Assembly (NCBI RefSeq): GCF_001715975.1
Contig: NZ_MARB01000001.1
Location: forward strand, 124,001-188,000
Direction of reading: 5' to 3'
Origin: Candidatus Thiodiazotropha endolucinida
GTDB lineage: Bacteria > Pseudomonadota > Gammaproteobacteria > Chromatiales > Chromatiaceae
Length of the DNA: 64,000 nucleotides
The position numbers and the translations under genes are program-made. Shown here piece by piece: positions 4,369-20,256 of the stretch. Within the stretch, counting starts at the first letter, position 1. Every line of letters begins with the position of its first letter. The notes below the pieces were generated by a model. It was not told where the DNA came from and searched no databases. It saw only the letters and a list, made by a program, of their open reading frames with translations.

Positions 4369-4767
4369 GTCATTAAGCCGTTGAGCGTAGCGAACCGAGT
4401 CGATATGACACAGAGTAACGCTAGCGAAGGTCTATATCCACAGATCATTAAATAGCACTAAAACAGACACCTAGCACCAGATAACCCATGGTTTCATATT
4501 CGATCCCGTCTGGCCAGATCGGTTGGATGCGCAGAGTTGCCGGATATCCCACTGTGACTGAGTGGACCTATTCTGCTCACGCTAAAGGCATTGTCCTTTA
4601 TCAGCCAATCGGCGTGAACAGGGCAAGGGCGGGTATTTACTGTGTTTTAGGATTCCCTCAAACTTGAAGAAATCGACCAGGCCGGTGTCTTCTATGGCCG
4701 GATATGCTGCCATACGTGTGTTTTACAAAGCGCATGCCGTAGTGGTTGGAAATCGGATGCCTCATCT
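4369..4767. other. non-coding stretch upstream of the haem GGDEF/EAL gene
   Basis: A divergent intergenic region of about 480 bases separates the TIR gene from the GGDEF/EAL gene. I see no open frame with coding character and no structured RNA that I recognise. The right end holds the sigma-28-like promoter listed separately. Confidence 0.5.
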
Positions 4768-4794
4768 TAAGTTTTTATGAATATCTGCCGATAA
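4768..4794 (+). promoter_or_regulatory. sigma-28 (FliA)-type promoter
   Basis: The -10 element GCCGATAA at 4787-4794 is a perfect match to the FliA consensus. Eleven bases upstream is TAAGTTTT at 4768-4775 (TTAAGTTT if a 12-base spacer is read), close to the consensus TAAAGTTT. The predicted transcription start is about 50 bases before the ATG at 4853, which has an AGGA ribosome-binding site. This places the downstream c-di-GMP gene in the flagellar late-gene class; expression itself is not shown. Confidence 0.75.
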
Positions 4795-4852
4795 AGTCTG
4801 TGTTTATCCCGGGTCATGTTATCGAAATAACCCAAGGTGGATTAGGAAGTCC

Positions 4853-6934
4853 ATGAATCAATTGATCCCTCTCGTCCAAAGCGATGAATCTAGGTTGCGG
4901 ATTCAGTTATGGGTGGCCTTTTTCGGCTGGACACTGCTGGTACTGTTTCTGCTCTTATGGGCGATGAGCAATGAGTATGCCGAGATGTTGGAGCTGGCTC
5001 GCCGGGAGGCGATCGACAACTTCAACAAGGACCAGGCCTTTCGTGTCTGGGCAACCACCCATGGAGGGGTCTACGTGCCGGTGACTGAGCGTACGCAACC
5101 CAGCCCACTCCTGAGACATATCCCTGAGCGTGATCTGGTAACCCCCTCCGGCCGCCAGCTGACGCTACTGAATCCCGCTTATATGCTGCGCCAGATGATG
5201 GAGGATTATGCCGAACTCTATGGGGTCAAAGGGAGAATCACCAGCACCAAGACCCTCAATCCGGAAAACGCGCCGGACGAGTGGGAGCGGGCGGCCCTGG
5301 AATCTTTCGAGCGCGGAGAGAAGGAACAGTTCGAGCTCACCGATATCAACGGCGAGCCCTACCTGCGTTTGATACGTCCTATGGAGACAAAGGCGGGCTG
5401 TCTCAAATGCCACCATAATCAGGGGTATCAGGTGGGGGATATACGAGGTGGAGTGGGCATATCCGTACCAATGAAACACTACTTTTCCTCGGCTGCCGAA
5501 CAGAAGCGGGAGATCAAGGCAGGTCTGGGTCTGATCTGGTTTGCGGGGGTCAGTGCCATCTGGTTCTACGGCAGGCGCAGTCGCCAGCGGTTCCGGGAGC
5601 GCAAGGACTATGAGGATCAGATCTGGCAGCAGGCTAATTTTGATTCGCTAACCGGCCTCTCAAACCGGAATCTCTTCCTGGACAGGCTGGGTCGGGCTCT
5701 GGCCTTTGCCCGGCGGCAACACTCCATACTTGCACTGCTCTTTATCGATCTTGATCGTTTCAAGTATGTCAACGACGCCCTGGGACATGCTACAGGCGAC
5801 CAACTGCTGCAGGAGGCGGCGCGGCGGCTGCGGCTGTGCGTCAGAGAGATGGATACGGTATCCAGACTGGGTGGTGACGAGTTTACGGTTATCTTACCCA
5901 TTATCAGTGAGGGGCAGGCTGTTGCCAGGGTGGCTACCTCCATACTGACCGAGTTGTCACGGCCGTTCGACCTTGGTGGTCAGGAGACCCATGTTTCCGC
6001 CAGTATCGGTATTACGCTCTATCCTCAAGATGGCAGTGACACAGGCATGCTGTTGCAGAATGCGGACACCGCCATGTATCAGGCCAAGGCAGAGGGACGC
6101 AATACCTACCGTTTCTTCACCTGGGAGATGAATAAAGTGGCGGAGGGGCGTGTCTCACTGGGTGCAGCCCTGCGTAACGCTCTACGCGGGAATGAGTTTC
6201 AACTCCACTACCAACCCATTGTGGATATCGCTGATGGTCAAATTGTGGGCGCTGAGGCCTTGATCCGATGGGGATCGCCCGAACAGGGTCGTGTGGGGCC
6301 TGATCAATTTATACCGGTAGCTGAAGAGAGCGGTCTGATTGTGCCCATTGGCGATTGGGTACTGCAGCAGGCGGCGTTGGATCTAAAGCTTTGGGACCGG
6401 GCAGGATTGAAGATGGAATTGCTCTCGGTCAATGTTTCCACTGTCCAATTCCAGTTTGAAGGTTTCCTGGAAAAAATGCTTGATCTGATGAAGCACCAGC
6501 CGCATCTCTCATCCAGGCTCTTCCTTGAGATTACCGAGAGTGTCTTTCTGGACGAACACCGGGAACCCGGCACACGTTTGGGTGTTTTACGTAAGCAAGG
6601 CATCGGCATCTCCATTGACGATTTCGGTACCGGTTACTCGTCACTGAGTTACCTCAAACGGTTTCCCGTGGACAAGATCAAGATCGACAAATCATTCATA
6701 CGCGATGTAACAACCGACCCCGAAGACGCAGCGCTCTGTGAGGCAATTATCGCCATGGCCCACCACCTTGGCCTCAAGGTAGTGGCGGAAGGTGTGGAGA
6801 CCAAGGCGCAATGGCGGTTTCTACACGAGAGTGGCTGTGACTATGCCCAGGGTTACTACATCGGACGGCCGATGGCAGCGGCCACATTCACCGATTTTCT
6901 GGTTAAACACACCGATGTACCGGCGACAGGCTGA
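4853..6934 (+). CDS. haem-binding (DUF3365-type) GGDEF/EAL protein
   Basis: Inner-membrane protein of 693 residues predicted to make and degrade c-di-GMP. A first transmembrane helix at about residues 23-43 and a second at about 222-240 enclose a periplasmic DUF3365/Tll0287-like domain. This domain has a c-type haem motif CLKCH at residues 183-187, pointing to redox or gas sensing. The GGDEF domain has an intact LGGDEF signature near residue 340 and an RxxD inhibitory site (REMD) five residues before it. The EAL domain has EAL, DDFGTG, KIKID, AEGVE and QGYYIGRP, so both activities look possible. It is monocistronic behind a sigma-28-type promoter. Confidence 0.92.
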   Translation: MNQLIPLVQSDESRLRIQLWVAFFGWTLLVLFLLLWAMSNEYAEMLELARREAIDNFNKDQAFRVWATTHGGVYVPVTERTQPSPLLRHIPERDLVTPSGRQLTLLNPAYMLRQMMEDYAELYGVKGRITSTKTLNPENAPDEWERAALESFERGEKEQFELTDINGEPYLRLIRPMETKAGCLKCHHNQGYQVGDIRGGVGISVPMKHYFSSAAEQKREIKAGLGLIWFAGVSAIWFYGRRSRQRFRERKDYEDQIWQQANFDSLTGLSNRNLFLDRLGRALAFARRQHSILALLFIDLDRFKYVNDALGHATGDQLLQEAARRLRLCVREMDTVSRLGGDEFTVILPIISEGQAVARVATSILTELSRPFDLGGQETHVSASIGITLYPQDGSDTGMLLQNADTAMYQAKAEGRNTYRFFTWEMNKVAEGRVSLGAALRNALRGNEFQLHYQPIVDIADGQIVGAEALIRWGSPEQGRVGPDQFIPVAEESGLIVPIGDWVLQQAALDLKLWDRAGLKMELLSVNVSTVQFQFEGFLEKMLDLMKHQPHLSSRLFLEITESVFLDEHREPGTRLGVLRKQGIGISIDDFGTGYSSLSYLKRFPVDKIKIDKSFIRDVTTDPEDAALCEAIIAMAHHLGLKVVAEGVETKAQWRFLHESGCDYAQGYYIGRPMAAATFTDFLVKHTDVPATG

Positions 6935-7006
6935 ATGAACTTACTCGTTTCTCAAAGCGTATTTGGTAACCCTGGTATCTCTGTTCACTGTGCTCGACGG
7001 CAATGA

Positions 7007-7249
7007 TCAACCGATGATCAGCAGTGCAAGGAATGGTATCAGGTTAAAGAAAATAAAGAAGAGCTTAAAAATACCCAGGAAAAGATAGATCAGTTGATCA
7101 AAATTCGCTCTGGAGATTGCAATCCAGCGACTCTGCGTTTTGTAACCCAGCTCAGGTGCGAAAAGAATAAACAGTGTCCACAGAATCAGCAGACCGCCAT
7201 TGATGAGTGTGCACCACATAAAGAAATCTGTGATCAGCTGGATATTCAT
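7007..7249 (-). CDS. small membrane protein, DUF6868-like
   Basis: Protein of 80 residues with two hydrophobic segments (about 10-30 and 52-78) joined by a polar loop (ELGYKTQSRWIAISRANFDQ). It resembles the small DUF6868 family of two-helix membrane proteins, which has no known function. It lies between the haem GGDEF/EAL gene (convergent) and pdsS, with no operon partner. The family call is from memory of the pattern. Confidence 0.7.
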   Translation of the reverse strand: MNIQLITDFFMWCTLINGGLLILWTLFILFAPELGYKTQSRWIAISRANFDQLIYLFLGIFKLFFIFFNLIPFLALLIIG

Positions 7250-7381: not shown

Positions 7382-9451
7382 CTAAATTGTATATGGAAGG
7401 GTGATTGCAAAACAGACGCCGTCAGTTTCGTTGTTCATCCATGCATCTCCTTGGTGAAACTCGGCTATCAAGCGCACTAGATAAAGCCCTATACCGAGAT
7501 GGATCTGGTTGTCGTTGCCTATTCTTTTCGATTCCATATTGTGAAATAGTTTGGGTATGTCACTTTCGGCTAGCTGTGGACCTCGGTTCCTGATCTTAAT
7601 GTCGAGCGCTTTGCTGTTCATGTCGTCCAGTATGATCTGTATGGCTGTATTCGGTTGGTGGAAGTCGATAGCATTGCTGATCAGTTTATCCACTGCCTGA
7701 CTGATCAGGTCTGGAGATATTTGGATCCAAATGGGATAGGCCGGTATATGGCACTCAAAATCAATATGCTGGTAGGTAATAGCGTAACCGTCACACAGGG
7801 ATTTACAAAAAGCAGTGATATCGACTTTTTCTTTTTCACTGTTCTGTAGTGATTGTTCTAGCCGAGTGGCCTCGCGTATGCGTGTGAGAATTAGATTGAG
7901 TCTTCGTGTACCATCAAGCGCTCGTTCGATATAGGGTGATTTCTGGAAAGAGTCACTATCATGTTGAAGGTTCTCCAAAGAGCCCTGAACCATAGTCAAT
8001 GGGGTGCGGATTTCATGGGTAAGTCTTGCTGCCATGGACTCAAGATAGCCTGTATATGCGACAGAACGTCTTAGAACTGCACTGAAACTCCGATCAAGTT
8101 CACCCAGTTCATCCTTGTCTTTGCCTGACTGGACCTCTTCTATGATCCGGCCATCCGGACTGACAGCCTGGTTGTATTTATGGCTGAGTCGGGTAATACG
8201 GCGAGTCAGGGAGGAGGCGAATAGGAGCAGTGTTCCTCCTGTGATGATGAACAGTATCAGGCTTATGAGAAATAGTCGCTCGAGCGCACTCTGTTGTAAC
8301 AGCAGTATCATTTGAGTGCTTTGTTCAACAACCACTGTGCCAATAGTATTTTGACCAATTTCAATCGGATGCGCAGCAGAGAGGATCATTGATTTCGAAC
8401 CGGTGATGCTATAGCGATAGATCGCACCTTCACCTGAGAGTGATCGACGAATCTCCGGGCCATCCAGTTTTCCCATACCCTCCCTGGCGTCTATCCCTGT
8501 CTCTTCAGCAGAGGGCGAGAGTAATGAAATCAGCCGACTTAACAGGATGTGGTTCGGTTTGATAGACGTTTGAATCGATCCATACCGTCCAATAACCTGA
8601 CGCTTTCTGTTAAGAATCGTATAACGGTGATTTTTCTCTTCCAGACCAGATAGAAGCCTGTCTACCCGAATGGTAGGCATGACCAGCCGGGAGAGATTTT
8701 GGTTGCTGTTCCAACCTGAAGTGGAGGCAATCCCAACGGGTTTTGCCTGGGGTATATCGATGTCGACGACTGCCAGGGAGAGATGTCCGTCAGTCATTGA
8801 ACGGGGTATCTGCAGTTCAACCCGGTAACCATGGGCAGTTTCCTGCCATTCACCCCTAATGGCTGTCTGCTGGCGGTTGTTTTCGTATTCAACCACGTTG
8901 ACCCAGCCTGGAGCCGGGGTGCCAAGGCGGTATTTTCTGCTCTTTCCTGAGGGACCCGGGAGCGCGAGTATCAGGTGATCACCGACACTCAGGATCCGCT
9001 CCGACTGAGGATAGATCAGGGTCTGATCCCTGACCTCTATCATCAGATAAATATTTTCGCCTTGAAATCCTGCAAGCCACTCAAAACTGACTGCATCAGG
9101 GGTTGTCGCACTGGCCCTGAACTGGCGGGATTGAGATTTCAGGCTAAGCCAATCTTCATCATAGCCATCAAGGTCTGGGGAGTTGGCGAGCGGATGAACA
9201 TAGAGGGAATTATTGTGCGTTACATTTTCTGAGGTCGTGCCAGCCAGCCAGTTGTTGCTGTTTGCTGCAAGCATGTTGGCTACAATCTCAGCCCTGTTAA
9301 GTAGTAAGGCCTCTTGTGCCTGGCGAAGCGAAGCCTCCATCTCAGATAAATAGTGGTAACCTGCCCAAGGAATCAGAATCAGACTGAATGATACAAGCAG
9401 AAGTTTGAATCGTAGTGTTTGGGTGAAAGGCAGATTCATCTTTTGAGGCAT
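7382..9451 (-). CDS. pdsS: dedicated sortase system sensor histidine kinase
   Basis: Sensor kinase of 689 residues. A transmembrane helix near residues 12-30 and another near 393-415 enclose a large periplasmic sensor of about 360 residues, part of which (about 80-230) resembles a CBM9/DOMON-like beta-sandwich. Then come a HAMP-like linker, a HisKA domain with THEIRTP (phospho-acceptor His about residue 479) and a HATPase domain with LISNAIDF and HLGIGLYLVRLI. Its place beside pdsR and close to an OmpA protein, a VIT/VWA sortase target and a class GN sortase matches the 'proteobacterial dedicated sortase system'. It follows pdsR on the same strand with an 88-base gap. Confidence 0.88.
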   Translation of the reverse strand: MPQKMNLPFTQTLRFKLLLVSFSLILIPWAGYHYLSEMEASLRQAQEALLLNRAEIVANMLAANSNNWLAGTTSENVTHNNSLYVHPLANSPDLDGYDEDWLSLKSQSRQFRASATTPDAVSFEWLAGFQGENIYLMIEVRDQTLIYPQSERILSVGDHLILALPGPSGKSRKYRLGTPAPGWVNVVEYENNRQQTAIRGEWQETAHGYRVELQIPRSMTDGHLSLAVVDIDIPQAKPVGIASTSGWNSNQNLSRLVMPTIRVDRLLSGLEEKNHRYTILNRKRQVIGRYGSIQTSIKPNHILLSRLISLLSPSAEETGIDAREGMGKLDGPEIRRSLSGEGAIYRYSITGSKSMILSAAHPIEIGQNTIGTVVVEQSTQMILLLQQSALERLFLISLILFIITGGTLLLFASSLTRRITRLSHKYNQAVSPDGRIIEEVQSGKDKDELGELDRSFSAVLRRSVAYTGYLESMAARLTHEIRTPLTMVQGSLENLQHDSDSFQKSPYIERALDGTRRLNLILTRIREATRLEQSLQNSEKEKVDITAFCKSLCDGYAITYQHIDFECHIPAYPIWIQISPDLISQAVDKLISNAIDFHQPNTAIQIILDDMNSKALDIKIRNRGPQLAESDIPKLFHNMESKRIGNDNQIHLGIGLYLVRLIAEFHQGDAWMNNETDGVCFAITLPYTI

Positions 9452-9539
9452 CTGTAAACCATACTGGTGTCACGGTGAAGCGATTGCTTATTCTCGTTGC
9501 GTTCGACTGATCGATGTCGACGCCGGCTCTGCGGTGGCG

Positions 9540-10241
9540 CTATTGTATCCAGCGGTAGCCGGCACCATAGACCGATTCAATAAGGATGAAATCACTGTCC
9601 ACCAGCTGGAATTTTCGTCGAATACGCTTGATATGGGTCGTGATACTGGCACTATCCACATAGATATGGGCTTCCTCCATCAATTGATCCCGGCTTCGAA
9701 CATGGCCGGGATGACGGACCAGGGCATGCAGCATCCAGAATTCGGTGACTGTGAGGTTGACCGGGTTCTGTTTCCAGTGTGCTGTGAGCCGGTCACGATC
9801 AAGTTGCAGGTCACCCCGAATCAGCTGAGAATCACTTGGCTGTTCTTGTTGCATGGCATCGATACGGCGGAACAGTGCGCCTATCCGAGCAATCAGATGG
9901 GGAAGACTGATATCTTTAGTGAGATAGTCGTCAGCGCCGAGTCTGAAGCCTGAAACACTGTCTAAATCGCTGTCGCGTGCAGTCAGGAAGATGATTGGCA
10001 GAGTATTGGACCGGTTGCGCAGTTCGCGACATAGCTCGAATCCTCCATCAATGTCATCCGCCAGCCCGATATCGAGGATGACAAGGTCCGGCAAGCGTTT
10101 GTTGAACGCTGCCAGAGCCTCCTGACGCGTGGCATAACCAGTTGCCGAATAACCCTGCCGGCTTAGGTAGTCAATATAGTTTTCCCTTATAACCTGTTCA
10201 TCCTCAATGACGGCTATCTGCTTTCTAACCACGTTGATCAA
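9540..10241 (-). CDS. pdsR: dedicated sortase system response regulator
   Basis: OmpR/PhoB-type regulator of 233 residues. The receiver domain (about 8-125) has acidic residues in VIEDEQ, the phospho-acceptor D57 in LVILDIGLADD, TARD and the switch lysine in YLTKDISLPH. The C-terminal winged helix (about 140-232) has LTVTEFWMLHALVRHPGHVRSRDQL and ends with VYGAGYRWIQ. It is the first gene of a two-gene minus-strand operon with pdsS. Likely targets are the pds genes starting at 15200, but no operator could be defined by eye. Confidence 0.9.
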   Translation of the reverse strand: MINVVRKQIAVIEDEQVIRENYIDYLSRQGYSATGYATRQEALAAFNKRLPDLVILDIGLADDIDGGFELCRELRNRSNTLPIIFLTARDSDLDSVSGFRLGADDYLTKDISLPHLIARIGALFRRIDAMQQEQPSDSQLIRGDLQLDRDRLTAHWKQNPVNLTVTEFWMLHALVRHPGHVRSRDQLMEEAHIYVDSASITTHIKRIRRKFQLVDSDFILIESVYGAGYRWIQ

Positions 10242-10385
10242 TCATCCTGTATGCTCAGTTCTCTGGTATGGGGATTATGAACGTTTTATGGGAATGAGTG
10301 AAACATTCAAGGTATCGATCCATTTTTTATTACCCTGGCGGCTTTTTCAAAACACATAAGAATCAAAGGAGCCAAAGGGATTGGA

Positions 10386-13304
10386 TCATATAGATATGGA
10401 TGAAGGTAGTGTGGTAGTGACAGGAATTTCCGGGGATGGCCTGCCAATGTAATATCCTTGGGCATGGGCGACACCAAGCTCTGTCAATAGTTTAAGCGTT
10501 GCCTCGTCCTCAACGAATTCAGCGACTGTATCTTTACCGAGTGCGCTCGCCATTTCGGTCAGAGCCTTGACGAAAACCTGATCCTTGGTGCTCGTGGTCA
10601 GGTTCTTAATGAATGAGCCATCGATCTTGACTATATCCAACGGTAGTTCTCTGAGATAGTAAAATGATGAGAACCCGACTCCAAAGTCATCCAGGGCAAA
10701 GCGGCAGCCAAGCGCCTGAAGTTCACTCATTAGATCGATCGCCGCGTTGACATCGGCGAGTGCCGCTGTCTCAGTTAGCTCGAAAACCAGTCGTTCCGGA
10801 TTGATGCCGCTAGAGTTGAGAAGATGTGTCAGTTGCGTGAGCAGTTCTGGGTCATCAATAACACGCCCGGAAAGATTGATCGAGAGAGTGATGTCATGAT
10901 TTGCCTTGTTCAGGCTGGACAATCGTTGAATCGAAGTGCGTAAAACATAATGGTTGATCTGGTGAATCAGTCCTGTCCGCTCAGCGACAGGGATAAATTC
11001 ACTTGGTAGCGCAAGTGTGCCATCACTCTCGATCATCCTGATCAGAACTTCGTAGTGAGAGATAGTGCCATTTGCTATCTCCATGATGGGCTGGAAAAAC
11101 AGAATAAAGTTATCTTTAGCCAAGGCTTGCTCGATCTTGTCTTTCCAGGTTACGCGCGCTTTTATCTCCTCGTGAGTTTGATCCTGGCTGGAGAAGATAT
11201 GCCATTGATCTCTGCCGGATTCCTTTGCTTGATACATGGCAAGGTCGGCGTTCGACAATAACTGATCGGAATTGCTGCCATGTTCTGGGTAAGTGGCGAT
11301 GCCGATGCTTGCCGATATACGATGACTGTGGCCTTTCAGCGGTATCGTGATCTGCTTGAGCTCAGACAACAGCTTGTCAGCGAATTGTGTTGCATCCGAT
11401 ATATCGGTTTCAGGTATTACTATGGCGAACTCATCTCCACCCAGGCGAGCGAGCAGTTCGGTACTGCGGGTGATTTCCCGCAGCTTTTTGGCAACGATCT
11501 GCAAAAGGGCATCGCCGGCCTGATGACCACTTGTGTCATTAATGTATTTGAATTGGTCAAGATCGAAAAAGATCAATGCCGTACTATGGTGATAACGTTC
11601 CGCAAGAGTCAGTATTTTATCGAATTCGACCTGAAAATTGCGCCGATTATGGAGTTCGGTCAAGGGGTCATGACTGGCCATCCAGGCAAGTCGCTGTTCG
11701 GCAACCTCTCGATCTGTAATGTCCAGCCCCACTGAGAGTATGACGGGTTCATTGTCATCATTTATACCGGTCAATGGAGAGTGAACCCAGGAAATGGTTC
11801 TGTTTCGACCATCTGCAGACAGAGAGCCCGCATCGTGTTGATATGAGCTTATCATGCCGTCACGCAGTCGTAACATAACATGTTTCATCTCTTTAATATC
11901 CTCAACATTCATAAAGAGATCACAAAAATGGCGGGTGCCGCGCTCATAATTCCTGATCCCGATGAATTCTCCCCCTTCTGTATTGATGGTGAGTATGGCT
12001 CCATTGCAGTTCTGTGTCAGGATGATCGCCTGGGCGCTGTCCATGATGGTATTGAGAAAGTCACGTTCTACCGCCAACTCTTCGCCGCGTTTGATAAGGT
12101 TGTCAGTATTGGTTTTGATTTCATTATGAAGTCTTTCCAGAGTGTACGTCAGTTGGATGGCTGAATCGCCGGCAATGTCGATCTCGTCCCTATATCGATC
12201 CGGATGCTTGACAGTGAGTTTGTCTCTTACTTCACGAAATGCATTTTTGGCCAGTAGAGGCAGACTGTCAGAAATCATCAACAATCGCTTCATAGGTTGC
12301 CAGAGGAACAGTGCCAATAGCAGTTCGGAGACCGAGAAACCGATAATGCCGATAATCACTGATTGTGTGGTTGCCTGTTGGATTTGATTGACAACCGGGG
12401 TAATGTTGCTGGCTATTATGAAATCAGCAGAAAATGCGGATATGTCACTACTCACGGGAATCAGACTTAAAGCATAATGGTTTCTATCCAAAATCGTTGT
12501 GTATCTGTTATGTAACAGATTTTCCATTTCGATTGCGTCGGCGGTAGACTGCAAAAGGGGTATCGAACGGTCTAAATTGCTTGACGCGATTATGTAACGC
12601 CGCCAATTGGTCAGGTAGCGATTTCTGCCTTGTAGCTGTTCATGTTGTTTGGGGCGGTTTACGATGGCTACGTCAGCTTTTGCAAGTTCATTGAAATCGA
12701 TAATCAGGTCAGCCAATGATTGTCCAACCAGCAATACGCCAGCATGCTGGCCTCTGTCCAACAGAGGTACGGCAACATATTGACTGCAACGGACATCGCA
12801 GTAAATGGTGTTGGAGGGTATTTCAAGACGATTGACTGATTTGACCAGCTCTAAAAAAGAGTCATCGAGTGCACCGGTCTGCCAGTTGAATTGCAGTTTG
12901 TTGTCACTACTGTAATAGGCTGCTTCTTCAAGCCCCCAGTCAATTTGCAGTGTCGTCTCGCTGTGCTTGAAAAATCTTTCCAGTTTTTCCGTTAAGGCTA
13001 ATTTTTTAGAAGTTGTCGCGGCTTCAGACAATGCAGGAATCATCAAAGCTATCTGCTCCAGTCTATAAATGCTGGATTCCAGAAGTGACCTGACCTGTCG
13101 GTGATGTTGGTCAAGTATCTGTGCTTGATAGGTATCGAATAACTTGCGCTGTTGCAGATAACCCATGCCGGCCAGGCCGGCATTGATGATAAACAAAACC
13201 AGACTGAACAGCAGTACCACCTTCCATTTAAGGCTGAGAAATAAACCCTTGCTGGATTGTGCGTTACCGCGGTCCTGTTCAGGCTTGTTTTTGACTGAAT
13301 CCAT
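10386..13304 (-). CDS. membrane PAS-GGDEF-EAL c-di-GMP protein
   Basis: Protein of 972 residues. Transmembrane helices near residues 30-48 and 315-335 bound a periplasmic CACHE-like sensor with no haem motif. Then come a HAMP-like region, a PAS domain (about 415-540, with SVGLDITDRE), a GGDEF domain with intact ARLGGDEF, and an EAL domain with EVL in place of EAL. The EAL domain keeps SINLSGR, ELTET, DDFGVGF, KIDGSF, AEFVE and QGYYIGRP. The RxxD product-inhibition site reads RSTE, so feedback inhibition may be weakened. It starts 9 bases after the porin stop and is the last gene of a three-gene minus-strand unit. That unit sits between the two halves of the sortase locus. Confidence 0.9.
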   Translation of the reverse strand: MDSVKNKPEQDRGNAQSSKGLFLSLKWKVVLLFSLVLFIINAGLAGMGYLQQRKLFDTYQAQILDQHHRQVRSLLESSIYRLEQIALMIPALSEAATTSKKLALTEKLERFFKHSETTLQIDWGLEEAAYYSSDNKLQFNWQTGALDDSFLELVKSVNRLEIPSNTIYCDVRCSQYVAVPLLDRGQHAGVLLVGQSLADLIIDFNELAKADVAIVNRPKQHEQLQGRNRYLTNWRRYIIASSNLDRSIPLLQSTADAIEMENLLHNRYTTILDRNHYALSLIPVSSDISAFSADFIIASNITPVVNQIQQATTQSVIIGIIGFSVSELLLALFLWQPMKRLLMISDSLPLLAKNAFREVRDKLTVKHPDRYRDEIDIAGDSAIQLTYTLERLHNEIKTNTDNLIKRGEELAVERDFLNTIMDSAQAIILTQNCNGAILTINTEGGEFIGIRNYERGTRHFCDLFMNVEDIKEMKHVMLRLRDGMISSYQHDAGSLSADGRNRTISWVHSPLTGINDDNEPVILSVGLDITDREVAEQRLAWMASHDPLTELHNRRNFQVEFDKILTLAERYHHSTALIFFDLDQFKYINDTSGHQAGDALLQIVAKKLREITRSTELLARLGGDEFAIVIPETDISDATQFADKLLSELKQITIPLKGHSHRISASIGIATYPEHGSNSDQLLSNADLAMYQAKESGRDQWHIFSSQDQTHEEIKARVTWKDKIEQALAKDNFILFFQPIMEIANGTISHYEVLIRMIESDGTLALPSEFIPVAERTGLIHQINHYVLRTSIQRLSSLNKANHDITLSINLSGRVIDDPELLTQLTHLLNSSGINPERLVFELTETAALADVNAAIDLMSELQALGCRFALDDFGVGFSSFYYLRELPLDIVKIDGSFIKNLTTSTKDQVFVKALTEMASALGKDTVAEFVEDEATLKLLTELGVAHAQGYYIGRPSPEIPVTTTLPSSISI

Positions 13305-13313
13305 GGTGACTGC

Positions 13314-14519
13314 TCAGAAACTGTATGAGGCAAGCAAGGAAAACAGATTCCAGTCCCGTTCAGTGGTGCCGGGTGCATTTTCCAGGTTTGAAAGGAAAAT
13401 CGCACCCTCGACCTGACTGAACTCTGCGCGCAGCATCAGCTGTTCAGTAGGTTCCCAGAGTATCCCCAGTGTCCATAATTCACTGAAAAAGGTATGCTCC
13501 GGAGGGCCAAGTATGGCACTGCTATTCTTACCCTCTTTATCGTGTTTGTTATAGTGGCTCTCCTCATAGCGAACAAAAAGCTCCCAATCTGCATCAAGAC
13601 GATAGTTGCCTTGAAAATAATAGCCATCTACGGTTGTATCCGCCATATTCAGCAGGCCGTTGAAATCTTTATAATCAATCGGTTCTTCCATGTATTCCAT
13701 GGTGAGACTCCAGGGGCCGGTATTATATTGTGCGGATAATACCCGATAATCGATCTTGATCTCACCGGGTGGGAACAGGTCCGTCTCTGCATCCAGCGTC
13801 AATGAAGCAGTGCTGAAAGCCAGTCTGAAGCGTCCCCCATCCCATTCATAAAGCAATCTCCCTCCCAGTGTGATGCCGTCATTGTCCATTTTCGGGTTCA
13901 GGTTCGGGCTGAGATAGGAGTTCTCGACATTTTCATCGATGGGAGTTGTACCACCGATCAGCCTCAACTGAAAAAGGTGGGACTCTGACTGGATTTCGCC
14001 GTATAGCTGTCCTCCGTCGCTTGAGAGTACCATGTTTCGTACCCGGTCCCAGTATATAGCCTGGGGCATAAATATACCTGGACGGGTTGCAGCCACATCA
14101 CGAGTGTCGTTATAGAATCCGAAGGTGTTTTTACTGCGACCGAGTATAAAGCCGATACGATCATCTTCGCTCATATGAAGGGTGTAATCGAAATGCGCAT
14201 AGTCCAAGTCGAGAGAGCCATCATACATTTCACCGGCTTTACGGGAGAGTATCTGTGCTGCCAGCATTATCTGTGGCGACATCCGATAGGATGCGTTGAT
14301 ACCCAATTCGCGAAAATCGAAACTACCGTCTTGGCTGTCACCAAAAAATTGATTTTCCGTTGTCTTGACATAGGCTTGGGTCAAGAAACCATGGACTTGG
14401 AACATACCTTCGAATACGTCAGTTTCGGCAGCCAATAATTTCTGGCCAAGTACGCAGAGCAGTGCGAACAGGCAAACAGTCCGGCTACTTTTCAATGCTG
14501 ATCGTCCGTACATGCTCAT
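13314..14519 (-). CDS. outer-membrane beta-barrel (porin-like) protein
   Basis: Predicted outer-membrane porin-like protein of about 402 residues, substrate unknown. A signal peptide (MYGRSALKSSRTVCLFALLCVLGQKLLAAE) is followed by alternating amphipathic strands such as FELFVRYEESHYN, WTLGILWEP, MLRAEFSQVE and the terminal FSLLASYSF, which ends in the C-terminal Phe typical of barrels. I chose ATG 14519 because AAGGA lies 7 bases upstream; a longer frame to 14567 is open but has no signal-peptide logic. The start overlaps the end of the PstS-like gene by 35 bases, which suggests translational coupling. Confidence 0.8.
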   Translation of the reverse strand: MSMYGRSALKSSRTVCLFALLCVLGQKLLAAETDVFEGMFQVHGFLTQAYVKTTENQFFGDSQDGSFDFRELGINASYRMSPQIMLAAQILSRKAGEMYDGSLDLDYAHFDYTLHMSEDDRIGFILGRSKNTFGFYNDTRDVAATRPGIFMPQAIYWDRVRNMVLSSDGGQLYGEIQSESHLFQLRLIGGTTPIDENVENSYLSPNLNPKMDNDGITLGGRLLYEWDGGRFRLAFSTASLTLDAETDLFPPGEIKIDYRVLSAQYNTGPWSLTMEYMEEPIDYKDFNGLLNMADTTVDGYYFQGNYRLDADWELFVRYEESHYNKHDKEGKNSSAILGPPEHTFFSELWTLGILWEPTEQLMLRAEFSQVEGAIFLSNLENAPGTTERDWNLFSLLASYSF

Positions 14520-14907
14520 TAGTATATCCTTCAGAAAGATAGCCAATTGCACCGGGAGTATTTGCAACTTTTATCCGCATCTCCCGCTCGGATCCCACCC
14601 TGATGGGCGCCTGCCCCATACCGGAATAGATCTGTCTGTTCCAGGCACGGCGCAATTGATGGGGAAACAGGCCAAGCATTTGTTTGGTGAAGCGCCTATG
14701 CAGATTACTCTTGTCACCCATCACGAAGACATGAATCGGTTTACCATCCGACCATTGGGTTTTGCGCATGCTGAATATGGAGCGCAAGGTATGGCGTGAA
14801 AGCGTCTCTTGGGTGACGTCAAGATTGATGACGAGGTCGACCGAGTGTGCCGTTTCGCTGAAACATATCATCAATCCTAGAAAAAATGCGAAGTAGGCAG
14901 TTTTCAT
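14485..14907 (-). CDS. small PstS-like periplasmic substrate-binding protein
   Basis: Exported protein of 140 residues with a signal peptide (MKTAYFAFFLGLMICFSETAHS). It carries a short PstS-type half domain: LRSIFSMRKTQWSDGKPIHVFVM, then a C-terminal segment with the PGAIGYL motif common to PstS-like ligand loops. Full PstS is over 300 residues, so this is a reduced family, often annotated as phosphate ABC transporter substrate-binding protein. No ABC transporter genes are nearby. Together with the overlapping porin and the GGDEF/EAL gene it forms a unit that could couple anion sensing or uptake to c-di-GMP; that role is inference. Confidence 0.78.
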   Translation of the reverse strand: MKTAYFAFFLGLMICFSETAHSVDLVINLDVTQETLSRHTLRSIFSMRKTQWSDGKPIHVFVMGDKSNLHRRFTKQMLGLFPHQLRRAWNRQIYSGMGQAPIRVGSEREMRIKVANTPGAIGYLSEGYTNEHVRTISIEK

Positions 14908-14943
14908 TCTTGATTACGGGAGATTCCTTGCTTTTCCTACAGC

Positions 14944-14971
14944 TTTGCGGCATCCATAAATAGTTACTTTA
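14944..14971 (-). promoter_or_regulatory. possible weak sigma-28-type promoter
   Basis: On the minus strand TAAAGTAA (14971-14964) is followed 12 bases later by GCCGCAAA (14951-14944). Each half matches the FliA consensus TAAAGTTT / GCCGATAA at six of eight positions. The predicted start lies about 30 bases before the PstS-like ATG at 14907. The match is much poorer than at 4768 or 24207 and may be chance. Confidence 0.3.
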
Positions 14972-15199
14972 GCTCAAATCACAGCTGTCCATTGGTTAAT
15001 TCCCACCACTCACTGCAATACTACCCTCAGGTTGACAGATTGTCGCCACTTTCTGCTTCCATCCGGCCTCATTTTGGTGAGCAAATTGCCATCTGACTGA
15101 ACTGAAATTGTTATCGGTAGTACCGCAAACCGGCGCGGCACAGGAGTGGACGGGTTCGCCAAGGAGGGCACGCTGGGTCAACATTAAGAGGTTCAGAAA

Positions 15200-15892
15200 A
15201 TGAAGAAAACGTTAGTGGCAATGGCAATTTTCAGTCTCCTGTTTCAATCCCCGCTGGTGGCGCAAGCGCGGGACCAAAAAGCGGAAAAAGGTGTATTCAC
15301 AGGCTCCATGATCGGAGTGGTGGTGGGTACTCTCCTCGGTGGGGCGCCTGGGGTTGTTTTGGGGTTGACCGGTGGTGCGATGGCCGGAGAACTGGCGGTG
15401 CGGAAAGATCAGGTCGATGCAATGGACTCAGCGTTGTCGGCGGTCCGGGTCATGCAGCAGAGAGAACAGCTGGCTGCCGCGGAACACCAGGCGCTTTATC
15501 AGCGGCAGCGGGCATTGCAATCTGCCAGAGTCGAGGCACTGCAGCAGGGGTATACCTTTTGCCTTGGGTTTCGTAGTGACAGTGCCGAGATTGAAGCAGG
15601 GATCGGCAACCAACTTAAAGCCCTGGTTGTTATGTTGCAGGCCTTCCCAGAGTTGAAACTGCAGATTCGGGCAGGCACGGATGCGAGGGGAAGTGACGAC
15701 TATAACAAGACCCTCAGCAAACGACGGGCAGATGCCGTCGCCAATCTGTTGATGGATTCGGGATTATCGGAAGATCGGATGGAAGTCCACTATGTCGGTA
15801 AGGCGGAAGCACGCTATCCCATACAGGATCTTGAGGGATTGGCATACGACAGAATGGTCCAGCTTACCTTGGTCAATGGTGAAGAGTCATGA
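15200..15892 (+). CDS. pdsO: sortase-associated OmpA-like protein PdsO
   Basis: Exported protein of 230 residues. A signal peptide (MKKTLVAMAIFSLLFQSPLVAQA) is followed by a glycine-zipper segment (GSMIGVVVGTLLGGAPG...GGAMAG, about 31-62), a helical stretch and an OmpA-type peptidoglycan-binding domain (about 115-225). The OmpA core is visible as AGTDARGSDDYNKTLSKRRADAVANLL. The order OmpA-like protein, VIT/VWA target, sortase is the hallmark of the dedicated sortase system. The ATG is preceded by AGAGG at suitable distance, and the gene is first in the plus-strand operon, opposite the PstS-like unit. Confidence 0.9.
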   Translation: MKKTLVAMAIFSLLFQSPLVAQARDQKAEKGVFTGSMIGVVVGTLLGGAPGVVLGLTGGAMAGELAVRKDQVDAMDSALSAVRVMQQREQLAAAEHQALYQRQRALQSARVEALQQGYTFCLGFRSDSAEIEAGIGNQLKALVVMLQAFPELKLQIRAGTDARGSDDYNKTLSKRRADAVANLLMDSGLSEDRMEVHYVGKAEARYPIQDLEGLAYDRMVQLTLVNGEES

Positions 15893-16027
15893 GGTTTCGT
15901 CGGCAGCCCCTGAGTGAGGAGTTTTTCTACAGTTCTCCGGAGAAACCCACCGGCAATAGTTTCCGTTGGGTGCCTAGCGGATCGGTAATTCCACCTCGGC
16001 AGTCGCGGATCAGAGGGGAGGTGCGGT

Positions 16028-18190
16028 GTGTTGAAAAAAAGCGCCGTTAATACCCCTGCAGGTGAAGCGGGAGCCGACTGTTTCAGCAACAGGTTATTTA
16101 TTCGTGATCTGGTATTGACCTTGCTGGCAGCGGTATTTACAGGATTATCCGGTGGATTGTTATTGATTTTACTGGTGTTTGGTTGGAGTGAAGCTGCGGC
16201 TGACGGCCAGCCTAAGGCGGCCGCCGAGTTACAGCTGAGATCATTGAATGGTCAACTGCTGCAGCAGGCCCCGTTGTTAAAAAGCGATGTCCAGATCGAT
16301 GTTAACGGAATGCTGGCCAGGGTTCGTGTTGAGCACCTTTTTAAGAATCCCAGCCAATCATGGATGGAGGGTGTTTATCAGTTTCCACTACCTGAAACAT
16401 CGGCAGTCGAGCGGCTCCAGATGCAGATCGGTGAACGGGTTATCGAGGGGCGGATCGAGGAGAAAGGAGAGGCAAAAAAGATCTATCGGAAGGCCCGTGA
16501 TAACGGTCAACGCGCAAGTCTTCTGAAACAACAGCGGGCCAATATTTTCTCTGCTTCCCTAAGCAATATAGCTCCCGGCGAAGAGATTCGGATCGTGATC
16601 GAATTTCAACAACAGGCTCGTTATACGGAGCGTCGTTTTGAACTGCGCCTGCCGTTGGTGATCGCCCCTCGATATATACCCGGGAAAGCGCTTTCGTCAG
16701 ACACCCTGGCAGATCACACCCATACCGGGTGGGCATTGGATACCGATCAGGTCGAGGATGCGAGCCAGATCACACCGCCGGTGATGGATCCCCGCAATGG
16801 ATCGATCAATCCGGTATCTCTGGGGGTAAGGCTCGATGCGGGTCTGCCACTGCAGGCCGTCACCAGTCACTACCACCCGATGTTGCAAAGGGTGGACGGT
16901 GAGGGCGTGGTCCATCTGCGGCTGGGTGATGGGGAGGTGCCCGCAGACAGGGATTTCCTGTTGAGTTGGCGACTCCAGCCGGGATTCGCGCCGAGGAGCG
17001 TGCTGTTCACCGATCGTTGGAAGGATGAAGAGTATGCGCTGCTGATGATTCTGCCTCCCGCACCGGAACACTACGAAATGGGGCTGAACCGTGACGTAAT
17101 CTTCGTCGTCGATCATTCAGGTTCGATGCATGGCCCGTCGATGGAACAGGCGAAGGCTGCCCTGAGACTCTCAATAGCCGGTTTGCAACCGACAGACCGA
17201 TTCAACCTGATCGGCTTCAATAATCGCAGTCGGATGCTGTTTTCCTCGCCGCGGCCTGCCAGCGAAATCACACTGGGTCGGGCATTCCGCTTCATCGACT
17301 CCATGCACGCGGAGGGTGGTACGGAGATGTACCCGGCACTTGAGAAAGCCCTGAATAACAGGAACGAAGAGAATCGACTTCGCCAGATAGTGTTTCTCAC
17401 CGATGGTAGTGTCGGCAATGAGCAGGCGTTGTTCGACCTGATACGGCAACGCTTGGGTGCAAGCCGTCTCTTCACAGTGGGTATAGGATCGGCGCCGAAT
17501 ACGCTCTTCATGCAACGAGCCGCTCAATATGGACGCGGTAGTTTTACTTATATCGGTGATTTGAATGAAGTGGCAAGTCGAATGCAGGGCCTGTTTGAGA
17601 AACTCGGGTCTCCTGCCATGAGTCATATCAGCGTTATGTGGCAGGGTCCCGGCGATATTGACGTGGAACCGCAACGATTGCCTGACCTCTATTTGAGCGA
17701 GCCATTGATGATATCCCTTAAGGGAGAACGGCTCGATGGCAGATTGGCCCTCGAAGGCAGAAGAGGCACTAAGACCTGGAAACAGAGCGTTGAGATACAG
17801 GCTAATGGTCGGGCAACGGGTATCCACACTCTCTGGGCCAGGCAGCGCATAGCAGGCCTGATGGCATTGCCGGACAATGAGCTGGCTGAGGAGATGAAAC
17901 GACAGCGTGTGGTCGACCTGGCGTTGAAACATCAAATCGTCTCCCCTTACACAAGTCTTGTGGCGGTGGAAAAGCCTGTTGCCCGTCCCCATAACGAGGG
18001 CTTGGTGGGGGGTATGATGCCGGTCAACCTGCCTGCTGGTTGGCATGCTGAGTCGGTCTTCGGTCGGTTACCGCAAACCGCATCACCAGCCCCGCTGCTG
18101 TTGTGTGCAGGGAGTGTGCTGCTGCTGTTCTGGATCGTACTTGGACGATTCAAGACCCGGGGGCGGTCAGGTTCACTATTGACTGAATGA
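16028..18190 (+). CDS. VIT/VWA-domain sortase target protein
   Basis: Predicted substrate of the adjacent sortase, 720 residues. An N-terminal membrane segment (about 29-55) is followed by a VIT domain (about 65-195, with VRVEHLFKNPS and YQFPLPE) and a von Willebrand A domain. The VWA metal-binding motif is DHSGS at residue 362, with further elements TDRFN and FLTDGSVGNE. The C-terminus is a sorting signal: LPQTA (681-685), a hydrophobic helix, then a basic tail (RFKTRGR). This matches the 'marine proteobacterial sortase target' family. GTG 16028 is chosen because GGGGAGG lies just upstream. Its end overlaps the sortase start as ATGA. Confidence 0.93.
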   Translation: MLKKSAVNTPAGEAGADCFSNRLFIRDLVLTLLAAVFTGLSGGLLLILLVFGWSEAAADGQPKAAAELQLRSLNGQLLQQAPLLKSDVQIDVNGMLARVRVEHLFKNPSQSWMEGVYQFPLPETSAVERLQMQIGERVIEGRIEEKGEAKKIYRKARDNGQRASLLKQQRANIFSASLSNIAPGEEIRIVIEFQQQARYTERRFELRLPLVIAPRYIPGKALSSDTLADHTHTGWALDTDQVEDASQITPPVMDPRNGSINPVSLGVRLDAGLPLQAVTSHYHPMLQRVDGEGVVHLRLGDGEVPADRDFLLSWRLQPGFAPRSVLFTDRWKDEEYALLMILPPAPEHYEMGLNRDVIFVVDHSGSMHGPSMEQAKAALRLSIAGLQPTDRFNLIGFNNRSRMLFSSPRPASEITLGRAFRFIDSMHAEGGTEMYPALEKALNNRNEENRLRQIVFLTDGSVGNEQALFDLIRQRLGASRLFTVGIGSAPNTLFMQRAAQYGRGSFTYIGDLNEVASRMQGLFEKLGSPAMSHISVMWQGPGDIDVEPQRLPDLYLSEPLMISLKGERLDGRLALEGRRGTKTWKQSVEIQANGRATGIHTLWARQRIAGLMALPDNELAEEMKRQRVVDLALKHQIVSPYTSLVAVEKPVARPHNEGLVGGMMPVNLPAGWHAESVFGRLPQTASPAPLLLCAGSVLLLFWIVLGRFKTRGRSGSLLTE

Positions 18191-18885
18191 AGACCTTGAT
18201 CAGTAATGTTTTGACCATCACCCGATTGTCTCAGGCGCTGTTCCTGCTCGCTTTTTACCTGCTTGCAGAGGGGATGTGGATTGAGGCAAAGGCCTGGCTG
18301 GCGGAGGGACTGATTGCGGCTGCCTGGGAAGAGACAGTCTCTCACGAAGATAGTATCCCTCCCTGGCCCTGGGCCGATACCTGGCCGGTAGCTCGTTTGG
18401 AGGTGCCCAGGCTGGGTGTCGAACGCTATATCCTGGCGGGTGTCAGCGGTCGTACGCTGGCATTCGGGCCGGGCTGGGCCATGCAGACAGCTCGGCCGGG
18501 TCGCGCCGGAGCAAGCCTCATAGCCGGTCACAGGGATACTCACTTCCACTTTCTCAAGGAATTGAGGCATGGAGACCGCTTGGTTGTGGATACCCCGGGT
18601 AGCGGTAAAGTTATCTATCGTGTAGTCGCTACTGCAATCGTGCATCAGCAGGAGAAATGGTTGATGTCCGATCAGGGGGGGCAGGGATTGCTGCTGGTGA
18701 CCTGCTATCCTTTTGATGACCTCCTACCTGGAGGCGAGTCACGTTATCTGGTATGGGCAGAAGCTGAATCGAGACAGACATTCGGGTTAGAATCGATGTT
18801 GAGTCACTACATAATTAGAAGTCTGAATGAAGCCAATCCGGATTTTTCGCCATCTCGTCTGTCAGCACCCCGGCTATCTGGGTGA
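18187..18885 (+). CDS. class GN (Gram-negative) sortase
   Basis: Cysteine transpeptidase anchored in the inner membrane, expected to cleave the LPQTA signal of the preceding protein and join it to an unknown acceptor. An N-terminal membrane helix (about 12-38) precedes the sortase beta-barrel. The catalytic triad is visible: H115 in IAGHRDTHF, C173 in LLLVTCYPFD and R186 in GESRYLVW. The length of 232 residues is slightly long because the end overlaps the next gene by 59 bases. Gram-negative sortases of this type are normally dedicated to a single neighbouring substrate. Confidence 0.93.
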   Translation: MKTLISNVLTITRLSQALFLLAFYLLAEGMWIEAKAWLAEGLIAAAWEETVSHEDSIPPWPWADTWPVARLEVPRLGVERYILAGVSGRTLAFGPGWAMQTARPGRAGASLIAGHRDTHFHFLKELRHGDRLVVDTPGSGKVIYRVVATAIVHQQEKWLMSDQGGQGLLLVTCYPFDDLLPGGESRYLVWAEAESRQTFGLESMLSHYIIRSLNEANPDFSPSRLSAPRLSG

Positions 18886-19546
18886 TTATCTGCAGGCGCG
18901 CTCCATCCCCTGGGAGATGGTCTGCATTGATGAGGATCATCCCATCCCGCAAAAGACGCATGATGTCTCCGCGTTGGTCTTTATGGGGGCCGGTGTCAGC
19001 GTCAACGACCAGTTGCCCTGGATTGAAGGGGAGCTTCAGTTGATCCGCAAGGCCTTCGATCTCGATATACCCGTAATGGGGGTCTGTTTCGGCGCTCAGC
19101 TTATGAGTCGGGCACTGGGAGGCGAGATAACCCGTGGCAGGGGAATGGAGATTGGCTGGCATCCCGTAAAGACGCTGGTCGAGCATGGCAGTGACGGTTG
19201 GTTATGGGATATCCCGGAACAGTTCACTGCCTTTCATTGGCATGCGGACACCTACACGCTACCAGGGCAAAGCAGGCATCTGTTGAAAAGCAACTGTTTT
19301 GATCAGCAGGGATTTGTCATGGGCGATCATCTGGGAATGCAATTTCATCTCGAGATGACCCGGGAAATGGTAGAGAACTGGATAGAGCGATATGGCAGCG
19401 ATCTGTTGCTCGATTCGGATTGTAGTCAGTCAGCCGAGGCTATACTGACCTCAATTGACCAGCGGATTGAGACGTTGCATAAAATCTCCGATCTTATTTA
19501 TGGCAGATGGGTGGAGCGTGTACTGGCGAGGCAGGGTCAGGCATGA
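18827..19546 (+). CDS. class I glutamine amidotransferase (GATase1-like)
   Basis: Cytoplasmic protein of 239 residues with a complete GATase1 triad: nucleophile Cys in VMGVCFGAQLMSRALGG, and His and Glu in MQFHLEMT. It resembles stand-alone GMP-synthase-like amidotransferases whose substrate is unknown. It overlaps the sortase by 59 bases and overlaps the L,D-transpeptidase as ATGA, so it is likely co-transcribed with the sortase genes. A role in modifying a cell-wall or sortase acceptor amide is a guess from this position; a general detoxifying or purine-related role is equally possible. Confidence 0.85.
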   Translation: MKPIRIFRHLVCQHPGYLGDYLQARSIPWEMVCIDEDHPIPQKTHDVSALVFMGAGVSVNDQLPWIEGELQLIRKAFDLDIPVMGVCFGAQLMSRALGGEITRGRGMEIGWHPVKTLVEHGSDGWLWDIPEQFTAFHWHADTYTLPGQSRHLLKSNCFDQQGFVMGDHLGMQFHLEMTREMVENWIERYGSDLLLDSDCSQSAEAILTSIDQRIETLHKISDLIYGRWVERVLARQGQA

Positions 19547-20256
19547 GAAAGCTCCTGCTGCTGCTTGTGCTGATGTTGAACAGTGCCTGGGCCTCTCAGG
19601 ATGCCGAGCTCGAAGTGGCCCTGGAGCATTTGAGTGTCAGTGTGGAGCGGCGCGTGAAAGCACGTTTTGAACAGGCCGGAGTCGATTACCCGCCTCAACG
19701 GATTCAGCTGATTGCATTGAAAGAGAGTCGGCGACTCGAGTTGTGGGCTTTTCAGCACGATAAGTGGCAGTTTATCCACGACTATGCCATTTTTGCGGCC
19801 AGCGGCGGTGTGGGTCCCAAACTGCGTGAAGGGGATAAGCAGGTACCGGAAGGTTTCTATCGCATTACCGAGCTCAATCCCAATAGTCATTTCCATCTGT
19901 CGATGAAACTCAACTATCCGAACGGATTTGATTGGCTGAATGCGAACAGAGAGGGCCGGGTGGCGCCGGGCTCGAATATCTTTATTCATGGCAGTGCTTG
20001 GTCAGCGGGTTGTCTGGCAATCGGCAATCGCTATATCGAAGAGCTTTTCAAACTGGTTGCAAAAGTGGGCTTGGAACACTCAGCAGTACTCATCGTTCCG
20101 TATGACTTCCGCCAAAGAGAGATAACAGTGACAGAGAACGGACCTGCCTGGCTGGGGGAGTTATATGCCTATCTGAAACTGCGTCTAGTACAGTTCCCGT
20201 TGACGGAAAAGAGGTTTAAGTGCGCCTATGATTGCAGAGAAGCGTCAAATAAATAG
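19543..20256 (+). CDS. L,D-transpeptidase (YkuD family)
   Basis: Exported enzyme of 237 residues that links or remodels peptidoglycan stem peptides or attaches proteins to them. The start at 19543 (MRKLLLLLVLMLNSAWA, a signal peptide) is chosen over an upstream GTG at 19507 because it overlaps the previous stop as ATGA. The catalytic motif is HGSAWSAGCLAIG (His, then Cys as nucleophile) near residues 149-161, after EGFYRITELNPNS. It resembles the YafK-like group. As the last gene of the run pdsO-target-sortase-GATase-Ldt, it may work on the same envelope structure. Confidence 0.9.
   Translation: MRKLLLLLVLMLNSAWASQDAELEVALEHLSVSVERRVKARFEQAGVDYPPQRIQLIALKESRRLELWAFQHDKWQFIHDYAIFAASGGVGPKLREGDKQVPEGFYRITELNPNSHFHLSMKLNYPNGFDWLNANREGRVAPGSNIFIHGSAWSAGCLAIGNRYIEELFKLVAKVGLEHSAVLIVPYDFRQREITVTENGPAWLGELYAYLKLRLVQFPLTEKRFKCAYDCREASNK

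Follow-up and report, generated by a model that had tools for sequence, protein, structure and literature searches.

Candidatus Thiodiazotropha are sulfur-oxidising gill symbionts of lucinid clams. A stretch of 64,000 nucleotides from Candidatus Thiodiazotropha endolucinida (contig NZ_MARB01000001.1, positions 124,001 to 188,000 of the forward strand; hereafter, the window) contains a dedicated Gram-negative sortase system, which comprises a sensor kinase (PdsS), a response regulator (PdsR), an OmpA-like protein (PdsO), a VIT/VWA surface protein with a C-terminal LPQTA signal (the target) and a class GN sortase. Three minus-strand genes, which code for a PstS-like protein, an outer-membrane barrel and a GGDEF-EAL protein, interrupt this set. 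The eight genes were confirmed at the coordinates given in Table 1. Both the full set, judged by NCBIfam scores and the tail sequence of the target, and its division by three unrelated genes between pdsSR and pdsO-target-sortase were as described in the initial annotation.

Table 1. Features of the interrupted sortase locus (positions in the window).
Feature	Position	Strand	Basis or remark
pdsS, sensor histidine kinase	7382-9451	-	TIGR03785 full length; HisKA + HATPase_c (Pfam)
pdsR, OmpR-type response regulator	9540-10241	-	TIGR03787
GGDEF-EAL/pdsR gap, 144 nt	10242-10385	-	Separates module gene 3 from pdsR
dCache_3-GGDEF-EAL protein, module gene 3	10386-13304	-	Pfam
Outer-membrane barrel, module gene 2	13314-14519 (listed open reading frame to 14567)	-	Pfam; conserved Met start
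Single-lobe PstS-like periplasmic protein, module gene 1	14485-14907	-	PBP_like_2; structure model; Foldseek
ACTTTAG element near module start	14966-14972		Alignment of intergenic regions
Predicted PdsR operator, tandem repeat TTGACAGATTGTCGCCACTTTCTGCT	15032-15057	+	168 nt upstream of pdsO; alignment with 17 relatives
pdsO, glycine-zipper/OmpA-like protein	15200-15892	+	TIGR03789 best family; OmpA
VIT/VWA sortase target, C-terminal LPQTA	16028-18190	+	TIGR03788; tail sequence
Class GN sortase	18187-18885	+	TIGR03784

The sortase locus in the window and in the genus

The proteins were scored against the NCBIfam models at their curated cut-offs (TIGR03784, 158.25 bits; TIGR03788, 551.65; TIGR03787, 335.7; TIGR03785, 612.2; TIGR03789, 152.2). 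The sortase (TIGR03784, 203.8 bits), the target (TIGR03788, 723 bits) and the response regulator (TIGR03787, 367.1 bits) were above them, the sortase being the sole TIGR03784 match in the genome and the target its one TIGR03788 match above the cut-off. The LPQTA of the target is followed by a hydrophobic (transmembrane) stretch and basic residues, and an LP[QRG]TA tail was present in 17/17 targets examined in the genus. We propose that the LPxTA target is anchored by the class GN sortase.

As to other LPxTA proteins, a search for which was advised in the initial annotation, the genome has a single sortase and a single target above the cut-offs, but the LPXTG model TIGR01167, used to scan for further sorted proteins, was blind even to the known LPQTA target, so a second LPxTA protein may exist. 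The best TIGR01167 match (C19) was rejected as a second sorted protein, as it is internal to an open reading frame (ORF) and looks, by eye, like a FimV-like segment rather than a C-terminal signal.

The synteny comparison, also advised there, was carried out with 22 genomes of the genus, the window included. In 16 of them, a single contig carried the whole order pdsS-pdsR-GGDEF/EAL-barrel-PstS-like and, divergently, (pdsO)-target-sortase-amidotransferase-YkuD protein, and the split layout is therefore no assembly artefact of a single genome. Four genomes (G009, G011, G019, and G021) were partial, interrupted by contig ends and consistent with this order; in G011, pdsS, pdsR and most of the GGDEF-EAL gene share one contig and the target lies at the end of another. 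G014 was unreadable, its pds contigs stopping short of the cassette. The missing sortase of G011 and the missing barrel of G011 and G014 look like assembly gaps and were rejected as informative losses. pdsO was not detectable in G007 (locus L037). The order is retained in the most distant species of the genus, where the pds proteins other than PdsR nevertheless fall to about 42–58% identity.

One genome of the genus, G017, departs from this arrangement. Its three-gene module is intact and adjoins the YkuD gene, and neither a sortase nor a target above background (best E 2.1e-4), a PdsR at E ≤ 1e-60 or a PdsS (best 8.8e-28) was found; pdsO is missing at the module locus, no genome-wide search for it having been made. 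Three pieces of the amidotransferase gene persist beside the module (blastn E 1.6e-27, 6e-14, and 9e-12). The DNA upstream of the module aligns to L037 for 196 nt, the alignment breaking off just past the tandem repeat of Table 1, as expected after a deletion. This species appears to have lost the sortase system and kept the inserted module.

The three-gene module and its occurrence elsewhere

The 972-aa protein of the module matched GGDEF (166.8 bits), EAL (243.2 bits) and dCache_3 (53.2 bits) in Pfam; the PAS domain of its initial label was not called at E ≤ 0.01 and is plausible by eye only. Its GGDEF residues are intact and EVL replaces EAL, in columns that are invariant in 10/10 aligned rows, so that the protein, judged by alignment, carries the motif residues of cyclic di-GMP (c-di-GMP) enzymes. 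The barrel call was upheld (Porin_4 29.5, Porin_O_P 24.5, and TonB barrel 28 bits). Its listed start was wrong: the conserved start, invariant in 10/10 rows, is M17 of that ORF, which sets the coding sequence at about 13314–14519, with an overlap of 35 nt with the PstS-like gene.

The PstS-like protein, 140 residues long, scored 32.9 bits with PBP_like_2 and 19.2 bits with the NCBIfam model ptsS_2 (cut-off 206.6). Its structure model (pLDDT 87.6) was compared by Foldseek, and the 13 best matches were all PstS-type proteins, with query TM-scores of 0.64–0.69 over 120–134 columns of chains of 241–262 residues. The model corresponds to a single lobe of PstS chains of about 240–320 residues; the two-lobed anion trap is therefore absent. 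Thus, the label holds for the fold and not for a whole PstS, and a role as classical phosphate receptor was rejected. Upstream of the module, an ACTTTAG element was found in 18/18 intergenic regions and is retained in G017; it would be a candidate element of the promoter of the module itself.

Thirty-four loci were obtained when genome contigs were scanned with the barrel profile. The 14 more distant ones (L065–L078) have the PstS-like gene, the barrel and all or part of the GGDEF-EAL gene grouped in the same order and strand; neither a target nor a sortase was present in the flanks that were fetched. Four others (L079–L082) are weaker or incomplete, and at L088 the GGDEF-EAL gene is on the opposite strand. 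Additionally, in a draw of 274 genomes of the class Gammaproteobacteria, the barrel profile was found in 31, the sortase in 40 (36 of which pass the family cut-off, with G056, G163, G169, and G201 below it) and both in 6, including that of the window. No association of barrel and sortase was detected in the 273 other genomes (5, 25, 34, and 209 in the two-by-two table; Fisher p = 0.78). The five non-window genomes with both genes carry them on separate contigs or about 670 kb apart (G156); in G122, a draft assembly made up of short contigs, this distance is unreadable, and the barrel matches of G122 and G156 are weak.

Outside the genus, the module was never seen at a sortase locus in the genomes examined, and the cassette is a stand-alone gammaproteobacterial envelope-signalling module. 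The idea that the c-di-GMP cassette serves the sortase specifically was rejected, given the lack of co-occurrence and its retention in G017, where no sortase was found. The initial annotation had named relatives with the cassette always elsewhere and not co-expressed as evidence against its proposal; as to position, the genomes examined outside the genus largely answer this description, but within the genus the cassette is fixed at the locus.

A predicted PdsR operator and the control of pdsR

Operators of the OmpR family consist of tandem half-sites, a direct repeat with a period of 10–11 nt near the regulated gene. The alignment of 18 PstS-like/pdsO regions of the genus revealed a conserved block resembling such a repeat. 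With a first matrix built from these sites, the top site was on the expected strand in 15/17 pds regions from outside the genus. To avoid circularity, an expectation-maximization (EM) search was then run only on regions outside the genus, namely 17 pds intergenic regions, 16 from outside the family and one from the sister-genus locus L029; the set includes L147 and L149, which have regulators of 45% identity. At width 22, this search recovered a tandem motif with TTGCCATAATTcGTCA-type units toward the target, a period of 10–11 nt and 16/17 sites in the same orientation. The log-likelihood was 135.3 (132.8–136.5 in three repeats) versus 60.9–75.1 in 20 shuffled sets searched with equal effort. 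The motif was then applied to the 18 genus regions that had been held out. Each of them had its top site on the expected strand, 145–169 nt upstream of pdsO, and 12/18 regions beat 100 shuffles at p ≤ 0.03. Two further blocks, a CCGGCGC motif and CCAAGGAGGGCACGCTGG, are strongly conserved upstream of pdsO (window, about 15120–15190), the latter with a mean information of up to 1.57 bits per column; both are possibly a structured leader.

The sortase loci of the other 39 sortase-bearing genomes of the class draw were compared in their fetched regions. A close PdsR (tblastn identity ≥ 55%) is divergent from the target side, without cassette, in 14/39, one of which (L048) has a small ORF in the divergent gap. 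In five genomes a regulator of 38–45% identity occupies this position, in eight a TIGR03787 regulator above the cut-off lies on another contig than the sortase, one (G167) has a sub-cut-off regulator elsewhere in the genome and five have no PdsR at E ≤ 1e-60. G039, G056, and G201 were left out of the genome-wide PdsR search, the contigs of G122, G155, and G235 were too short for linkage, and the regulators of 29–36% identity next to some targets were excluded from the PdsR count. The assertion that known systems keep their genes close together is thus borne out by the 14 divergent loci, but not by the eight with PdsR on another contig, which indicate that a pdsR apart from the structural genes is nothing exceptional. 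At the sister-genus locus L029 (8664–12864), the space from pdsR to the repeat is taken up by genes for HTH-PBP, a sigma-54 response regulator and MobB; the repeat itself precedes pdsO by about 161 nt, a spacing like that in Thiodiazotropha.

The presence of the repeat follows that of PdsR. Among 14 loci without a neighbouring close PdsR, six carry the repeat (p ≤ 0.03), and all six genomes encode PdsR on another contig; only two of the genomes of the eight repeat-less loci (G108 and G232) encode a distant PdsR (Fisher p = 0.009; p = 0.028 with the sub-cut-off G167 as positive; p = 0.008 collapsed by genus). Moreover, the repeat was found upstream of six of the nine relocated pdsR genes, in the same six genomes (p ≤ 0.02), with G167 as a seventh at p 0.04. 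In this scoring, L198 was assessed on 112 nt only, L152 was too short, and L040 (30% regulator identity) and L197, L199, and L207 (38–42%) were left out. We regard the tandem repeat as a predicted PdsR operator, to which PdsR may bind. Its spacing to pdsO is steady (145–169 nt) and that to the module varies by about 120 nt in Thiodiazotropha, a pattern that suggests control of the pdsO side.

Since the predicted operator stayed with pdsO, the module would have landed between pdsR and this operator. The reading that we consider probable is that of an ordinary sortase system whose divergent gap was invaded by a stand-alone module and in which PdsR activates the pdsO side. A three-gene envelope-signalling module would have entered the gap in or before the Thiodiazotropha ancestor. 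PdsS would phosphorylate PdsR, which would bind the repeat, acting as an activating site, and turn on expression of pdsO and of the target and sortase genes; the LPxTA protein would then be anchored by the sortase. The module would have a function of its own and be kept on its own merits.

Several results weigh against this reading. PdsS (560.4 bits over its full length with TIGR03785, by far its best family) and PdsO (87.4 bits with TIGR03789, its best family; OmpA 54.7 bits) are under the cut-offs. Nine barrel loci of the class draw, fetched with 1.5-kb flanks, have the PstS-like gene and the barrel with no GGDEF-EAL match, and the third module gene is therefore not constant, or lies beyond the flanks. 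The first matrix reached p < 0.02 in only 4/17 regions outside the genus. The window's own repeat is weak (7.1 bits; 20/100 shuffles reach it, p = 0.20), the remnant in G017 is no better than shuffles (54/100 reach it), and the recovery in 18/18 genus regions does not amount to 18 independent trials, because these regions are related. At EM width 17, held-out recovery on the right strand was 15/18, and at width 14 it was lower still, with 4/17 training sites on the other strand. G108 and G232, which belong to one genus, have a PdsR above the cut-off and no repeat at either the target or pdsR. A consensus search allowing one mismatch gave 39 matches in 25 genomes (8 with the reversed pattern as control), 7 at pds loci by coordinates and 32 away from them; three of the four exact matches are at pds loci and one is in G257, without PdsR at E ≤ 1e-60, and the six genomes without PdsR gave 7 matches versus 2 for the reversed control. 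Lastly, the gap between module and pdsR measures 196–504 nt in 7/16 loci, and pdsR may therefore have its own promoter there.

The copies with a single mismatch away from pds loci (L223–L252) could be further PdsR targets or chance matches.

The GGDEF-EAL/pdsR gap was scanned in 12 Thiodiazotropha loci (L031, L036, L038, and L041 of the 16 complete loci were left out), and no consistent copy of the operator was found in these gaps, nor in L029. Control of pdsR has probably changed, because six of nine relocated pdsR genes carry the repeat and the Thiodiazotropha pdsR has no consistent one. As the repeat is missing there and the gap is only 48–149 nt in 9/16 loci, pdsSR would have lost its autoregulation, with possible read-through from the module. 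The same observations speak for a one-way transcriptional coupling, in which pdsSR is cut off from its operator and the module promoter sets the level of PdsSR by read-through, with no c-di-GMP input. This coupling is given tentative credit only, as the longer gaps could hold a separate promoter, the gaps of L037 and L047 have single operator-like sites (p 0.01 and 0.03) and the window's gap has two promoter-like matches (9/12), although the region is not enriched in such matches relative to shuffles.

Alternatively, the gap may be a tolerated insertion site where neighbours come and go with control unaltered. The different genes at the same place in L029 and the eight genomes with PdsR on another contig agree with such neutrality, but the retention of the order in the genus despite the divergence of the pds proteins, together with the probable change in the control of pdsR, leaves it a possibility to which we give less than even weight.

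The initial annotation had suggested c-di-GMP or an anion signal as an additional input to the control of the sorted protein. Recruitment of the cassette for such an input to PdsSR or to the sorted protein, with an envelope sensor altering c-di-GMP or the expression of the cassette, could explain its fixed position in the genus (16/22 complete). The cassette also reads toward pdsR on the same strand, the gap is short in 9/16 loci, no minus-strand terminator was called in the 144 nt of the window's gap (10242–10385), and read-through could drive pdsSR, given the lack of a consistent operator copy before it. This suggestion was not sustained, and we deem such an input unlikely: barrel and sortase do not co-occur outside the genus, where the module occurs alone, the cassette is intact in G017 without sortase, target, pdsS or pdsR being found, the operator stays at a nearly constant distance from pdsO and not from the cassette, and no c-di-GMP-binding domain was called in the pds proteins (Pfam, E ≤ 0.01). 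A weaker regulatory link is possible, in view of the fixed position in the genus and the direction of the cassette toward pdsR. Its boldest form, with PdsSR transcribed from the promoter of an envelope-sensing c-di-GMP module after loss of the autoregulatory operator, seems improbable to us; if true, this rewiring of PdsSR would let a host- or surface-dependent signal set the display of one covalently anchored symbiont surface protein.

Neighbouring features and relation to known systems

After the sortase, a glutamine amidotransferase and a YkuD protein are encoded in overlapping reading frames (window 18827–20256, plus strand), an adjacency kept in the genus loci; the YkuD protein resembles DpaA/LdtF/YafK (93.6 bits, cut-off 365) and represents a putative link to peptidoglycan anchoring. 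Next to pdsS, on the opposite strand, lies another GGDEF-EAL gene (4853–6934, plus strand), whose product has a Tll0287-like sensor; among the fetched relatives it was seen beside pdsS only in L031 and L036 (and in L049, on the same contig as L036). A 262-aa protein (3580–4368, minus strand) has a weak likeness to Thoeris type III ThcB4 (31.9 bits, cut-off 220).

Other sorting types were also observed. A second VIT/VWA protein with a glycine-rich, GlyGly-CTERM-like tail is encoded in the same genome (L193, contig C24 of G000, 4512–5105 and 5133–7175, minus strand; TIGR03788 213.8 bits, below the cut-off). A rhombosortase (TIGR03902 107.7 bits, cut-off 84) follows it, and a kinase and an OmpR-type regulator come before it; the genome thus has two homologous surface proteins and two unrelated sorting enzymes. 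A third sorting type is represented in the window by a 404-aa protein with a C-terminal PEP-CTERM motif (2072–3286, minus strand; PF07589 28.6 bits, cut-off 20.7).

The sortase system and its neighbouring target have been described (PMC3237569), and the role of sortases in Gram-negative bacteria is called unknown in PMC10581121. According to PMC8176591, deletion of the putative sortase gene srtA (class GN or other) of Shewanella oneidensis gave no higher current density. No publication on a sortase or on c-di-GMP in Thiodiazotropha was found in a search whose coverage excluded subscription papers, and literature queries for the pds protein names, GGDEF/porin/PstS, sortase/GGDEF and sortase/two-component returned nothing on this locus among the matches listed. 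What is new here is the insertion of a module into a known system and the tandem repeat predicted as operator. The operator prediction is the part most useful to others, as a site found in unrelated genomes and mostly following PdsR would offer a route to the regulon and to the conditions that switch the system on. The Thiodiazotropha loci, in turn, would provide two natural experiments: a regulator severed from its predicted operator, and a species apparently without the system in which the module is retained.

Compared with PstS phosphate-binding proteins, the window protein shares the fold of one lobe and differs in having 140 residues and that lobe only. The GlyGly-CTERM/rhombosortase system (PMC3237569) has its counterpart in the homologous VIT/VWA target paired with a rhombosortase in the same genome, but with an unrelated processing enzyme, another tail and a separate locus on contig C24. 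The proteobacterial dedicated sortase system (TIGR03784/03785/03787/03788/03789) is matched by five parts that are collinear on each side of the insertion and by the LPxTA-transmembrane-basic tail; it differs in that here a three-gene module parts pdsR from pdsO, pdsR has no consistent predicted operator, and the histidine kinase and PdsO of the window are under the curated cut-offs. Finally, the PstS-like/barrel/GGDEF-EAL triad of Gammaproteobacteria, for which no name was found, has the same genes, order and strand at L065–L078, but among the fetched loci it lies inside a sortase locus only in Thiodiazotropha.

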